Shown here: positions 14,172 through 33,349 of the stretch, piece by piece | How positions within the stretch are numbered: position 1 is the stretch's first letter | Layout: each line of letters opens with the position of its first letter | Virus record (IMG/VR): IMGVR_UViG_3300020472_001715 | Span: 1-33,358 of that record | Length of the DNA: 33,358 nt | Origin: a virus | Direction: 5' to 3' (one strand) | The notes under the pieces: generated by a model | The model's input: the letters and a program-made list of their open reading frames with translations, nothing else | Database searches by the model: none | Told to the model about the DNA's origin: nothing | Program-made: the position numbers and the translations under genes

Positions 14172-15071
14172 ATGTCATTTGCTGACTTAAAAAAACAGTC
14201 CCGCTCTGGGTCTCTCACAGAGAGATTGATGAAGAAAGTTGAGAAACTCAACGAGAAGGGCAATAATACTGATGAACGTCTGTGGAAACCAGCTGTAGAT
14301 AAGGCAGGTAACGGTTATGCCGTTGTTAGATTCCTTCCTCAACATGCTAACATGGATCTTCCTTGGGTTCAGGTTTGGAGTCATGCCTTCCAAGGACCAG
14401 GCGGTTGGTATATTGAAAACTCTTTAACCACAGTAGGTAAAGATGATCCTGTTGGAGAACTAAATCGTAGTCTCTGGAACAGTGGTCGTGAATCGGATAA
14501 GGATATTGCACGTAAGCAGAAGCGTAAGCTTTCTTACTATGCAAATGTATATGTTGTTAAGGATGCTTCCAATCCTGAGAATGAAGGTAAAGTTTTCATT
14601 TACAAGTTTGGTAAGAAGATCTTTGATAAGATTACTGCTGCAATGCAACCAGAATTTGAGGATGAGGATCCAATCAATCCATTTGATTTCTGGAAAGGTG
14701 CAAACTTCAAGTTGAAGATCAAACAGGTTGCTGGATTCTGGAACTATGATAGTTCAGAGTTTGGTAAGGTAGAAGCACTACTAGATGATGATAAGGCACT
14801 TGAAGGAATTTATGATAAGGTTAATGACCTAAGTGAATTCGTTGCTCCTGATCAGTTCAAGGACTATGAGGCTCTTAAGAAGCGTCTTGATACAGTTCTT
14901 GGTGCTAAACAGAGAGTAGTGCCATTTGTAGAAGAAGAGGACAATACTCGTGAAGAGGCTGCTCCTGTTGCAACAGATGATGAACTAAGTAAAGTTCCTG
15001 TTGCTGCTACTGCAAATACAGATGAAGAAGATGATGCGCTTAAATACTTCCAGCAGTTAGCTGAGGAGTAA
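14172..15071 (+). CDS. 32: Single-stranded DNA binding protein gp32
   Basis: At 299 residues, nearly the T4 gp32 length (301). The N-terminal basic segment (SFADLKKQSRSGSLTERLMKKVEK) serves cooperative binding. The core contains RFLPQHANMDLPWVQVWSHAFQGPGGWYIENSL, the T4 gp32 OB-fold signature, and the C-terminus is acidic (TNTDEEDDALKYF). Notably there is no cysteine anywhere, so the T4-type zinc site is missing. gp32 coats single-stranded DNA in replication and recombination. It has its own consensus sigma-70 promoter and a terminator downstream. Confidence 0.96.
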   Translation: MSFADLKKQSRSGSLTERLMKKVEKLNEKGNNTDERLWKPAVDKAGNGYAVVRFLPQHANMDLPWVQVWSHAFQGPGGWYIENSLTTVGKDDPVGELNRSLWNSGRESDKDIARKQKRKLSYYANVYVVKDASNPENEGKVFIYKFGKKIFDKITAAMQPEFEDEDPINPFDFWKGANFKLKIKQVAGFWNYDSSEFGKVEALLDDDKALEGIYDKVNDLSEFVAPDQFKDYEALKKRLDTVLGAKQRVVPFVEEEDNTREEAAPVATDDELSKVPVAATANTDEEDDALKYFQQLAEE

Positions 15072-15218
15072 ATGGAGCTAAAAAAACCGCTGATGCATGT
15101 TAGATTGCACCAGCTTGGTTTCTTCTACTGGGATCCTAGGATAGATCCTAGAGAACCAGAATATTGGGGCCCCGATGGGGGCTCCTTTTTTTATGCTCCG
15201 CTAAGTCTTGGATTGTGA
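15072..15218 (+). CDS. Possible small ORF spanning the gp32 terminator (48 aa)
   Basis: An ATG directly after the gp32 TAA has a good ribosome binding site (GAGGAG in the end of gp32). It opens 48 codons encoding an aromatic-rich peptide with FFYWDPRIDPREPEYWGPDGG. The composition looks protein-like. However, the last third lies over the terminator hairpin and the end of the opposite-strand gp53 gene. Real translation is possible but unproven. Confidence 0.35.
   Translation: MELKKPLMHVRLHQLGFFYWDPRIDPREPEYWGPDGGSFFYAPLSLGL
15166..15192 (+). terminator. Rho-independent terminator after gp32
   Basis: GGGGCCCC (15166-15173), loop GATG, GGGGCTCC (15178-15185), then a seven-T run. It separates gp32 from the convergent gp53 gene. 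There is no T run on the minus-strand side, so it acts mainly in one direction. Confidence 0.88.
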
Positions 15219-15958
15219 GCTTGTTTTAAGTAAGTTGTTTTGAATTGACTGGACTGTTTATATTTGAATATTTTCTTCATATCATTATATACAACATCTA
15301 AGTAATCTCTCTTAAGAACTTTAATTCTCCTCTTAGAATTATTAAGGTCAGTCTCATAATCCAAATTTGTTACTTTTTTAACATTATTATTTCTAATAAC
15401 ATTTCCAGAAGCATCCTTTGCAGTTCCTACTGAATCTACAGATGCTGCAGCAGGTACATTTGTATTTGCCACACCACTACTATAACTTAATTCTTGTTGG
15501 TAAGAGGCATTATATGCAATGAAATTAAAGTCAAAGTTTGAATCTACTGTTAATCCAGATGGTATTACTATTCTGGAATAGTTATCTACCATATAGAGGG
15601 TTTCATAGTGATGTACTTCGTTTAATTTCTCATCATTACCATACTTATCCATTAGAAAGTTTCTAAAGTCATTACTTCCTAATGGCCATTCATCTCTGAT
15701 ACTAATTATATTATTGCAAGTTAGAACAACCCAATCAAGTCTAGGATCTCCATAGAGTTCATTTGCAACTTGTGATGGTCTAAGATCTTCACCAACAACA
15801 TAATCATTAAATGCAGTAAATACTGAACTTAAGTCAGAACGAAGTCTGCCTCTCTTAAATAAATTCTTTACCTGAATAAATTCATCATTAGAACTTCTGT
15901 CAGTCGTTCTAGAGACATAGTTTATATTTGGTAAGTGTGAAAAGTATCCTCTAGCCAT
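15191..15958 (-). CDS. 53: Baseplate wedge subunit gp53
   Basis: The 255-residue product carries the gp53 signature VANELYGDPRLDWVVLTCNNIIS, matching T4 (LANAIYGNPQLYWVLLMCND). It then continues with DEWPLGSNDFRNFLMDKYG. T4 gp53 joins wedges into the hexagonal baseplate. A C-terminal extension of about 100 residues beyond the conserved part is longer than in T4 (196 aa). It is the last gene of the minus-strand operon gp4, unknown, gp48, gp53, one base after gp48. Confidence 0.9.
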   Translation of the reverse strand: MARGYFSHLPNINYVSRTTDRSSNDEFIQVKNLFKRGRLRSDLSSVFTAFNDYVVGEDLRPSQVANELYGDPRLDWVVLTCNNIISIRDEWPLGSNDFRNFLMDKYGNDEKLNEVHHYETLYMVDNYSRIVIPSGLTVDSNFDFNFIAYNASYQQELSYSSGVANTNVPAAASVDSVGTAKDASGNVIRNNNVKKVTNLDYETDLNNSKRRIKVLKRDYLDVVYNDMKKIFKYKQSSQFKTTYLKQAHNPRLSGA

Positions 15959-15959
15959 T

Positions 15960-17648
15960 TTAGTAACCTACGTCTGAACTTGATGGAACGTCTTGTTTTA
16001 CAATGCTGATTGGCATTAAATCTCCAAGAGAGTTTGGATCACTAGGATCAAATGCTCTACCTTCTTGAACCTTGTCACTATAATCAGTATTATATATTGG
16101 TTCTAGTTCTGCAAATTGTAGATCCATAGTTACAGATATTGGTTGCCCACCATCATAGGCATTCCATGTATTGTCTGGTGTATATACCACAGATATACCA
16201 GTTAGAGCGCATGGTTTAAACTTATTTGCTCCTAATATAGTTCTTCCACCACCAGTCATATACCTCAGTCTGAAGACGTTTGGAGTACCTAGGAAGTATG
16301 ATGGAGATCCAGCTCTACCTATGGTATCTCCAGCTTGTTCTCCTGAATTTAGTTTTACTAGTTTTCTAGGAGCAGACCATTGTTTAAATGCACGAATAAT
16401 CATTCTTATATTATGAGCTTCCATTTCGTCTCTTGGAGTCATTCTCCAATTAAAACCAAATGATCTTAATTTCACTCCAGAGAACATAAGTTCAGTATTA
16501 GAGTTGGCAACAACACCACCAGCTCTACTTAATATTGTTTCTGGTGTTATATCGTATCCGAGTTTTCCAGTTAATTGACTTAGTAAGTTAGCACCTATTT
16601 CTCCTCTACCTGCTTCTTTAGTACCTATAGCTGTATAGATTGCTGCTTGACCAGTTAATCTATTAAAAGCATCTGCTGTGTTGATGCCTCTCATCATATC
16701 ACCAGTTATAGTACCACCGATTGCACCTGCTAATAGAGTTCCTGCTTTACTGGTAAATGTTTTATTGACATGTTGTAAGGCTCCCATTGCCATGGTTGAC
16801 ATATTATCATCAACCCATTGAGTTTCATTTTTATCAGCAACCATGTTGGGCATTGGTAATATTATTCCTGCTCCCAATCTCTTTCTATATGGTGATTGTC
16901 TTGATAATCCATATCCAAGACTAGTTTCTCCTTTATCATCACCAAAACTTCTTTCCATAGAAGCTTCATATGGAGGTTGATATGAATAACAATCAATCTT
17001 CATATAGTCTTGTTGAGGTGATATATCCATAGGGTATGCTACGACCCTTTTCATAAATGAATCATTATCAACATCATAACTTCCACCTTGTATTCCAGCT
17101 TTTTCAACAAAAGATGCTGGTCCTTCTGTTATTAATTGCCATCCTACTTGTGCAGTTTGAACAGTACCCTTTACAAAATTAGCACCCCACCTTATAGGTG
17201 GTGGAACAACATGGTTCCATAAGAAAGAACCTAGATTGAATCCAGAAGCTTCATTATCTGCTACGCTCTGTGCTATTTGATTATTTGTAGTTGCAACTCC
17301 AAATCCTTGTTGATTTGAATCAGCCCATTGTGGGACTTCTTGATTTGTTCTAGTGGTATGTTCTCTTACTCCTGTTTGTACTTTACCATGAATAACTTCT
17401 TGCGTACTATCATCTAATCCTTCAAATTGAGTTGTATCCCATACTCCGTTTGTGTATATTGGTTTAGCGTCTATTAATATTTCTCCAGCTGAATCTACTG
17501 GTAATACTTGTGCAGTTCTTGTATCACCAAAATAAAATAGTTTATAGTTTTGGGTTTTATTTGTATTACTATTAGTTGCTACAATACCTGGCGTACCATC
17601 AGGTCCGATATAGTTTGGGTTTACTTCTTGTCTTAGGGCTGATGACAT
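15960..17648 (-). CDS. 48: Baseplate tail-tube cap gp48
   Basis: The C-terminal third holds the conserved tube-cap region: FGFNWRMTPRDEMEAHNIRMIIRAFKQWSAPRK, then FKPCALTGISVVYTPDNTWNAYDGGQPISVTMDLQFAELEPI. This is the tail-tube-like fold shared by gp48/gp54. At 562 residues it is longer than T4 gp48 (364 aa). The extra N-terminal half includes Gly/Ala-rich hydrophobic stretches around residues 300-340. gp48 caps the baseplate hub and starts the tube with gp54, encoded just across the divergent start. Assignment to gp48 rather than gp54 rests on order and length. Confidence 0.8.
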   Translation of the reverse strand: MSSALRQEVNPNYIGPDGTPGIVATNSNTNKTQNYKLFYFGDTRTAQVLPVDSAGEILIDAKPIYTNGVWDTTQFEGLDDSTQEVIHGKVQTGVREHTTRTNQEVPQWADSNQQGFGVATTNNQIAQSVADNEASGFNLGSFLWNHVVPPPIRWGANFVKGTVQTAQVGWQLITEGPASFVEKAGIQGGSYDVDNDSFMKRVVAYPMDISPQQDYMKIDCYSYQPPYEASMERSFGDDKGETSLGYGLSRQSPYRKRLGAGIILPMPNMVADKNETQWVDDNMSTMAMGALQHVNKTFTSKAGTLLAGAIGGTITGDMMRGINTADAFNRLTGQAAIYTAIGTKEAGRGEIGANLLSQLTGKLGYDITPETILSRAGGVVANSNTELMFSGVKLRSFGFNWRMTPRDEMEAHNIRMIIRAFKQWSAPRKLVKLNSGEQAGDTIGRAGSPSYFLGTPNVFRLRYMTGGGRTILGANKFKPCALTGISVVYTPDNTWNAYDGGQPISVTMDLQFAELEPIYNTDYSDKVQEGRAFDPSDPNSLGDLMPISIVKQDVPSSSDVGY

Positions 17649-32502: not shown

Positions 32503-32752
32503 AGAAGAGTATCAAAAAAGATGTGATGCAGTAGAGGATACTGCATATGCTGAACAAGGTAATCCTCAAGCCTTTGGAAATGAATTACTACTTCAGAACA
32601 TAGATGCTTTTGGAGCGGCAATAGCCGATATTCATCATCGTGTTAAGAAACTAGAGGATAAATTCCGTGAGATGGAAATAAATCAATCTCTCTTGGATAC
32701 AACTGTAAATGATCTAATTAAGGAGAAAGATGATGGTACTAAGAACGTTTAA
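32495..32752 (+). CDS. Hypothetical coiled-coil protein (85 aa)
   Basis: The start lies inside the end of the oxygenase-like gene with AGGGAGGA just upstream, a strong ribosome binding site. Residues 35-78 form a probable coiled coil (IDAFGAAIADIHHRVKKLEDKFREMEINQSLLDTTVNDLI). No family recognised. Overlaps the next short gene by 20 bases. Confidence 0.65.
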   Translation: MDKEEYQKRCDAVEDTAYAEQGNPQAFGNELLLQNIDAFGAAIADIHHRVKKLEDKFREMEINQSLLDTTVNDLIKEKDDGTKNV

Positions 32753-32888
32753 AAAGATCGACAAGAAAGGTCGTGAAGAAGAGTGGAGTTGGGAAGAGAC
32801 ACCTGAACTTGCTGCATTTATTGCTAAACAAACAGGGAAGCCTCATCTTAATGAACGTCCTCATAAGAAAGACGACGAAGCTGGGTAA
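32733..32888 (+). CDS. Small charged protein (51 aa)
   Basis: ATG 32733 (or the adjacent in-frame ATG 32730) lies seven bases after AGGAG (32721-32725). The product is basic at the N-terminus (VLRTFKKIDKKGREEEWSWEE), then has TPELAAFIAKQTGKPHLNERPHKKDD. No family recognised. It is the last protein gene before the RNA cluster, with only ten bases between its stop and tRNA-Thr. Confidence 0.6.
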   Translation: MVLRTFKKIDKKGREEEWSWEETPELAAFIAKQTGKPHLNERPHKKDDEAG

Positions 32889-32898
32889 CCTTTCCCAC

Positions 32899-32970
32899 GC
32901 CATCATAGCACAGTGGTAGTGCAGGGCTTTTGTAAAGCCAAGGTCGGAGGTTCAAATCCCCCTGATGGCA
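32899..32970 (+). tRNA. tRNA-Thr (TGT)
   Basis: A perfect seven-base acceptor stem (GCCATCA with TGATGGC) encloses a D stem GCAC/GTGC, an anticodon loop TTTGTAA with TGT at 32931-32933, and a T loop TTCAAAT. Two mismatches are seen: the first pair of the anticodon stem (G-A) and the middle of the T stem (A-C). CCA is not encoded. A 13-base hairpin (TCCCCTTTGGGGA) follows directly. Confidence 0.85.
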
Positions 32971-32983
32971 TCCCCTTTGGGGA

Positions 32984-33037
32984 TAGGTGATGTCACCTAC
33001 ATTCTGGACAGGGGTTCGACTCCCCTCACCTCCACCA
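32984..33037 (+). ncRNA. ssrA: tmRNA acceptor piece (permuted two-piece tmRNA)
   Basis: The segment ends with a T arm (AGGGG / TTCGACT / CCCCT, 33010-33026), the 3' acceptor strand CACCTCC (33027-33033), discriminator A and encoded CCA (33035-33037). The strand CACCTCC has no partner upstream but pairs with GGGGGTG at 33116-33122, leaving a G3-U70 wobble, the alanine identity element. CTGGACAGGGGTTCGA matches the 3' part of tmRNAs. Two-piece permuted tmRNAs with the acceptor piece first are known from alpha-cyanobacteria. The exact 5' end is uncertain; a TAGGTGA/TCACCTA hairpin (32984-32999) leads it. Confidence 0.8.
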
Positions 33038-33038
33038 A

Positions 33039-33114
33039 TGCTCCTTAGCTCAGTTGGTAGAGCGGTTGACTGTTAATCAATTTGTCGCTGGTTCGAGCCC
33101 AGCAGGAGCAGCCA
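33039..33114 (+). tRNA. tRNA-Asn (GTT) located between the two tmRNA pieces
   Basis: A complete tRNA: acceptor TGCTCCT with AGGAGCA, D arm AGCTCAGTTGGTAGAGC, anticodon loop CTGTTAA with GTT at 33072-33074, T arm GCTGG/TTCGAGC/CCAGC, discriminator G33111 and encoded CCA (33112-33114). It starts one base after the tmRNA acceptor piece and ends one base before the coding piece. End processing of this tRNA would therefore also free both tmRNA pieces. Confidence 0.93.
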
Positions 33115-33115
33115 T

Positions 33116-33320
33116 GGGGGTGCCAAGGTTTCGACAGGGTATAAGGAACATAACTGAAAACCTGCTTGGATAAGCAAACACAGATGCTAAAGACATCGAC
33201 ACCGCTGCGAATAACATCGTAGCATTCTCTCGTGTTCTCACAAGAGAATTCTCCCGCACTAGCGAACTCGCTACTGCCTAAGGGGAGATGGGGGTTTAGA
33301 TCAACCTTCTTAACCAACTG
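33116..33320 (+). ncRNA. ssrA: tmRNA coding piece (permuted two-piece tmRNA)
   Basis: The piece begins GGGGGTG (5' acceptor strand), followed by CCAAGGTTTCGACAGGG, the conserved tmRNA 5' segment. A GCTT/AAGC hairpin precedes the resume region. The reading frame from GCT/GCG at 33204-33209 encodes A-ANNIVAFSR, the same beginning as cyanobacterial tags (ANNIVxFSR). It runs on to ...LATA and TAA at 33279-33281. Downstream G-rich and complementary segments probably form pseudoknots. The 3' end is uncertain (placed before the terminator). Confidence 0.8.
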
Positions 33321-33326
33321 ATCCTT

Positions 33327-33349
33327 GGGGGTGTAATGCCCCCTTTATT
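33327..33349 (+). terminator. Terminator after the tmRNA coding piece
   Basis: GGGGG (33327-33331) pairs with CCCCC (33339-33343) around a seven-base loop, followed by TTTATTA. It plausibly ends the tRNA/tmRNA transcript. Confidence 0.6.

Follow-up and report, generated by a model that had tools for sequence, protein, structure and literature searches.

The ocean cyanobacterial virus described here has its own two-piece ribosome-rescue RNA (tmRNA), the gene of which surrounds a complete tRNA gene. The window, which is the whole stretch of DNA that was analysed, corresponds to a viral record in IMG/VR and is 33,358 bases long. By gene content it is a fragment of a T4-like cyanophage, with a gp32-like SSB, PhoH, transaldolase, thymidylate synthase, baseplate genes and a 2OG-Fe(II) oxygenase.

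A permuted tmRNA gene enclosing a tRNA gene

With Rfam covariance models, we identified a permuted tmRNA in two pieces, complete and of cyanobacterial type, at ~32971-33342. The cyano_tmRNA model (RF01851) matched end to end over 32941-33342 with 111.9 bits (cut-off 70, E 9.7e-30), and the tmRNA_permuted model (RF04321) scored 83.9 bits (cut-off 47) in the window. ARAGORN reported a permuted tmRNA with a 31-aa tag, a tRNA-Asn(gtt) and a tRNA-Thr(tgt). On the + strand the order is tRNA-Thr, hairpin, tmRNA acceptor piece, A, tRNA-Asn with CCA, T, coding piece and terminator-like hairpin, as follows.

32899-32970, +: tRNA-Thr(UGU), from ARAGORN, 10 bases past the stop codon of the upstream ORF at 32730-32888
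32971-32983, +: hairpin TCCCC-TTT-GGGGA at the 5' end of the acceptor piece, from the sequence and the MFE fold; the first hairpin of the cyano_tmRNA model
32971-33037, +: tmRNA 3' acceptor piece, from RF01851, RF04321 and ARAGORN, with a putative 5' end
33010-33026, +: T-arm of the acceptor piece
33027-33033, +: acceptor strand CACCTCC, followed by A73 (33034) and CCA (33035-33037)
33035-33115, +: intervening sequence of the permuted tmRNA gene, 81 nt
33038 and 33115, +: a single A and a single T, the bases flanking the tRNA-Asn and its CCA
33039-33111, +: nested tRNA-Asn(GUU), RF00005 68.7 bits (cut-off 29); 33039-33114 in ARAGORN, anticodon gtt
33112-33114, +: CCA 3' of the tRNA-Asn, from the sequence
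33116-33342, +: tmRNA 5' coding piece, the RF01851 match reaching 33342
33116-33122, +: acceptor strand GGGGGTG of the coding piece
33135-33155, +: P2 strand of the coding piece
33186-33281, +: tag reading frame AKDIDTAANNIVAFSRVLTREFSRTSELATA and TAA, from ARAGORN; the AANNIVAFSR core is kept in relatives
33327-33343, +: 3' hairpin GGGGGTG-TAA-TGCCCCC, then a T-rich tail, terminator-like; the last hairpin of the RF01851 model

The acceptor piece lies upstream of the coding piece, the acceptor stem comprises seven pairs including G3-U70 (G33118:U33031), and the tag frame at 33186-33281 has an alanine resume codon and a stop. An earlier note on this DNA had proposed exactly these halves (CACCTCC-A-CCA to 33037, GGGGGTG from 33116, seven pairs with G3-U70), and all of them are in the sequence; the covariance check that it suggested placed both models over their cut-offs. 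The region that it gave, 32984-33320, contains these elements but is too narrow, as the acceptor piece starts further upstream with the hairpin at 32971-32983 and the coding piece extends to ~33342. The Rfam match and the surrounding T4-like cyanophage genes bear out its view that a cyanophage carries this tmRNA.

As an Rfam search keeps only the best of overlapping clan members, the tRNA is masked in the joint search, and it was scored by a separate RF00005 search. An intact tRNA-Asn(GTT) with an encoded CCA, one base from each piece, is present in the window as had been noted. The CCA, on the other hand, is particular to this contig; in five relatives that carry the same tRNA-Asn in the gap, the letters at this position are TCAT or TCAC. 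Since the encoded CCA varies among relatives, it is no part of the design.

Nested tRNA genes in other viral sequences

The earlier note had suggested searching for the same order in other cyanophages, and 13 further viral contigs with tRNA-Asn or tRNA-Tyr were found. With the window included, a tRNA lies inside the intervening sequence in 14 of the 90 cyano-type permuted tmRNAs from viral records, seven with Asn and seven with Tyr. Three different tRNA genes are involved: one tRNA-Asn in six contigs, another tRNA-Asn in L308, and a tRNA-Tyr in seven. RF01851 scored over its cut-off in 12 of the 13 further contigs, the thirteenth match ending at a contig edge. The L308 contig (L524) has psbA and virion genes, and L452, L456, L446 and L441 carry cyanophage genes such as those for CpeT, transaldolase and 2OG oxygenase. 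The spacers between the nested tRNA and the tmRNA ends are 2-5 nt on each side and total 7-9 nt in the Asn cases and 6-8 nt in the Tyr cases, which is about the full spacer length in un-nested relatives. In the partial contigs checked, among them all but ~2 kb of the 76 kb of G002, the nested gene was the only one found for its isoacceptor. The anticodons of all 14 nested tRNAs are GUN (Asn GUU, Tyr GUA), possibly by coincidence; a reported archaeal case, described below, has tRNA-Ala. GUN-anticodon tRNAs are the class able to carry queuosine.

In a complete IMG/VR scan with a cyano-type pattern and a gap of 77-107, 25 contigs matched, of which 13 had a tRNA in the gap and 12 had none; a complete scan for gaps of 12-42 matched 78 contigs. 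A gap of 108-138 gave eight matches, none with a tRNA, and a pattern search for a tandem pair of nested tRNAs gave no match. Among 148 viral permuted tmRNAs with a gap of at least 70, a tRNA was present in the same 14 only and absent from ~134; the 28 viral rows of alphaproteobacterial type, distinguished by eye from the cyano-type rows by their sequences, included no nested case. The sample is biased and the counts are minimum values (at least 14 nested cyanophage sequences), since the pattern fixes several bases (GGACAG, TTCGA, GGGG and part of the coding start) and one scan listed its matches in part. A looser pattern, GTTCGAYTC-gap-GGTTTCGAC, was dropped as too unspecific. In isolated phages, a similarity search did not find the nested arrangement, no phage record covering 80% of any of the three queries; isolate tRNA-Tyr genes that match the nested tRNA-Tyr are located in ordinary tRNA arrays. 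As judged from these sequences, the tRNA-in-tmRNA architecture is real and recurrent, neither an artefact nor unique to the window.

The other 76 of the 90 cyano-type phage tmRNAs have a spacer of 4-9 nt and no tRNA. Three isolates, S-SSM7, Sf-FS3 and S-CAM3, carry cyano-type permuted tmRNAs (109-143 bits) with no tRNA in the intervening sequence. The neighbourhood in Sf-FS3 is that of the window (2OG oxygenase, tRNA-Thr, tmRNA), with the tRNA-Asn placed after the tmRNA and not inside it. Closely packed tRNA arrays of comparable spacing are commonplace in these phages. The isolate records annotate no tmRNA feature, and hypothetical proteins are placed across the permuted tmRNA or at its margin (S-SSM7 SSSM7_025, L003 2504-2722; S-CAM3, L004 2422-2562; Sf-FS3, L002 2836-3045).

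Among 386 genomes of the cyanobacterial phylum, 56 had tmRNAs over the cut-off and none of the 56 was nested; their spans of 274-317 bases are too short for a nested tRNA. The intervening sequence was 11-13 nt in the 10 hosts read. RF01851 scores were ~110-160 bits for phage tmRNAs and 284-329 for those of hosts. In four cyanobacterial genomes, the 3' part of the permuted tmRNA is matched a second time, incompletely, at a distance of 1-13 kb from the full gene (G376 C17, 75621-75907 and 81337-81432; G305 C1, 375812 and 384865; G253 C1, 145433 and 158396; G151 C1, 1444990 and 1443871), as would be seen if an integrated element were flanked by attachment repeats.

Phage tags are longer than host tags, with the front part A[KN]....AANNIVAFSR, and many end in ATA, VTA, ATV or VAV, as against VAA in the 10 host tags read. 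The altered ends may change the degradation of tagged peptides. L524 (L308 contig, 14594-16174) has its nested tmRNA immediately upstream of psbA, and the tag, ANNIVSFSRQRVPVAA, is host-like, unlike those of the other nested genes.

Apparent maintenance of the tmRNA

The base pairs formed across the two pieces (acceptor stem and P2) were examined in 12 nested genes. Standard pairs made up 96.2%, compared with 87.8% (sd 1.8) when partners were swapped, and none of 1000 swaps was as high; in un-nested phage genes the values were 95.3% and 85.0%. As the relatedness of the sequences inflates this test, direct compensatory changes weigh more. All four Watson-Crick forms (CG, TA, AT and GC) occur at acceptor pair 5-68, and each of the 68 rows is paired there. 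Among the Asn-nested genes, the G5-C68 of the window is replaced by A5-U68 in L094, and L453 has C-G at a P2 pair that is U-A in the others. The search patterns required G3-U70 and several flanking bases, and the invariance of G3-U70 in the collected set is therefore no evidence of conservation. Because the pieces still pair (96%) and covary across the insert, the tmRNA appears to be maintained in the tRNA-bearing genes. The architecture, its recurrence, the covariation and the intactness of the tRNAs can all be read from the sequences themselves.

Gain and loss of the nested tRNA

A tree of 73 tmRNAs, calculated without the intervening sequence, separated the 10 hosts from the phages (100/100) and needed eight changes of the nested state. 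With well-supported branches alone, at least five changes remain for Asn and at least three for Tyr; the exact count should not be trusted, as the RNA is short, some branches are long and phage recombination could add changes. Some near-identical sequences differ in the presence of the tRNA but agree over the remainder of the locus (L383/L450, L334 versus L446/L306, and L363/L444). The spacer of the un-nested L363 and L360 is CCTTTGCAA, which has CCTTTGC in common with the nested form at its beginning, CCTT-TGCTCC. The first three tRNA bases seem to have been left behind by a deletion, although the resemblance is only suggestive, and loss may therefore be as common as gain in that group. The spacers of the un-nested L363, L360, L460 and L332 (CCTTTGCAA, CCTTGCAA and CCTTGCAG) resemble fused ends of the nested tRNA-Asn (TGC...GCAG) and are possible deletion scars.

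Proposed processing and alternative explanations

In the predicted fold of the precursor, the closed tmRNA acceptor stem encloses the acceptor stem and T-arm of the tRNA. The local fold was no more stable than shuffled sequences (z -0.8); the whole transcript was more stable (z -3.85). Promoter-like sites were found just upstream of the acceptor piece in L446 and L524 (L308 contig), as consensus matches only; a search of the window gave no such site upstream. If those sites are real, the nested tRNA of these two contigs could be obtained only from the tmRNA precursor. RNase P and tRNase Z are believed to process the precursors of two-piece tmRNAs (PMC3985003), and the Prochlorococcus tmRNA consists of two RNAs (PMC1242208).

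We infer a single transcript containing tRNA-Thr, which is presumably cotranscribed with the tmRNA, the acceptor piece, tRNA-Asn, the coding piece and the terminator. The two tmRNA strands would pair to form the acceptor stem, whose loop would hold the entire tRNA-Asn. RNase P would cut 5' of the tRNA-Asn (33038/33039) and 5' of the coding piece (33115/33116), and 3' processing, with CCA addition where CCA is unencoded, would complete the 3' ends of the acceptor piece and the tRNA-Asn; the 5' end of the acceptor piece may be fixed, wholly or in part, by 3' maturation of the tRNA-Thr. With these enzymes at work both on the tRNA and on the tRNA-like domain of the tmRNA, three RNAs would be released, giving a usable tRNA-Asn and a two-piece tmRNA that could be charged with alanine and, in infected cells, would act on stalled ribosomes to tag phage-made peptides. 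Within dense phage tRNA arrays, the intervening sequence would be a permissive site where tRNA genes come and go with no tmRNA base removed. We regard this account as a whole, a nested tRNA in one transcript, cut by tRNA enzymes from a permissive spacer, as probably correct.

Whether the nesting is selected or tolerated was then considered. Maturation of the nested tRNA by RNase P and 3' nucleases would free both internal tmRNA ends, and a selected processing module of this kind would couple the supply of tRNA-Asn or tRNA-Tyr to that of the tmRNA. The occurrence of three different tRNA genes at this one site, on several branches of the tree, the short spacers on either side and the lack of a second isoacceptor gene in the sequence examined are in accord with this possibility. 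Most cyano-type phage tmRNAs, however, do with a spacer of 4-9 nt, host tmRNAs contain no nested tRNA, the tRNA is often gained or lost, and the spacing is that of ordinary tRNA arrays in these phages, so that we consider a selected module rather unlikely. We are similarly doubtful that cyanophages have repeatedly taken a tRNA into the spacer so as to free both tmRNA ends through its maturation and to link provision of that tRNA with ribosome rescue under phage control and with a tag specific to the phage. That the tRNA is so often gained or lost speaks for tolerated rather than selected nesting. With most relatives lacking the tRNA and the state changing frequently, the simplest account is a spacer, set in a tRNA array, that permits such insertions. 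The processing through the tRNA proposed in the earlier note would be an obvious route to both internal ends, but its suggestion that processing is built in as a purpose is weakened by the 76 tRNA-free genes and the repeated gain and loss.

Three other explanations were also weighed. Insertion of the tRNA could have broken the tmRNA and left a decaying pseudogene of which only the tRNA is used, and the phage tmRNAs indeed score far below those of hosts (~110-160 versus 284-329 bits); un-nested phage relatives nevertheless fall in the same range, and the nested genes keep their pairing, covariation and tag frame, which makes decay very improbable. An assembly chimera or misplaced tRNA might be suspected from the fact that the nested cases found are all from IMG/VR contigs and none is from an isolated phage. 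The same junctions, however, recur in contigs of different samples with differing substitutions, some of them compensatory, and three tRNA genes are involved; the probability of a chimera is negligible. We give equally little credence to a remnant of a host ssrA attachment site acquired by a temperate phage. Although ssrA is a common integration site and partial second tmRNA copies lie near the gene in some cyanobacterial genomes, nothing is missing from the gene in the window, which has both pieces, a tag and a terminator-like hairpin. Its carrier is a T4-like cyanophage of the lytic type, the phage tmRNAs and those of the 10 hosts fall on separate sides of the tree, and lytic isolates such as S-SSM7 have an intact tmRNA distinct from that of hosts. 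Assembly artefact, pseudogene and attachment-site remnant were rejected on the recurring junctions, the kept pairing and tag, and the complete gene. Tolerated nesting is the reading that we favour.

Comparison with known tmRNAs

The permuted two-piece tmRNA of marine Synechococcus and Prochlorococcus (RF01851) was found as two separate RNAs by Northern blot (PMC1242208). The phage genes share with it the gene order, T-arm, acceptor stem with G3-U70, P2 helix, ANNIV tag core and 3' hairpin. They differ in being phage-borne, in having a spacer of 4-9 nt or a whole tRNA rather than 11-13 nt, and in a longer tag that often ends in ATA, VTA or ATV rather than VAA.

Two-piece tmRNAs are also known from phages, for example the methylophage Melnitz, and 53 such structures, 50 of them aquatic, have been described in phage genomes (PMC9004378). 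Melnitz, S-SSM7, S-CAM3 and Sf-FS3 resemble the window in that the phage has its own permuted tmRNA, of the cyano type in the last three. These three isolates differ from the window in having no intervening tRNA, and Melnitz-type genes are of the alphaproteobacterial type. A tRNA-Ala in the intervening sequence of a permuted tmRNA was reported in 2025 for the nominally archaeal GCA-2688965__sp002688965.2, as 'unique' among 97,179 tmRNA sequences (PMC11915505). It shares with the window an intact tRNA gene within the intervening sequence and differs in being a single, possibly misbinned case with tRNA-Ala, a comparison made by description only. The statement in the earlier note that no tmRNA organised in this way had been described is contradicted by this report, and two-piece tmRNAs in phages had likewise been described (PMC9004378).

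The recurrence in cyanophages, the two kinds of tRNA and the compensatory evidence for a maintained tmRNA were not found in a literature search that reached a minority of subscription papers. They turn a single reported oddity into a recurrent architecture, in which one stable RNA is enclosed in the gene of another in a widespread group of marine phages, and they are further evidence that ribosome-rescue RNA with altered tags is supplied by cyanophages themselves. At one and the same place the tmRNA and tRNA searches are both right, and annotation pipelines that keep only the best overlap hide such cases. The pairs with and without the tRNA provide a natural experiment on the processing of permuted tmRNA precursors and on what their spacers can contain.
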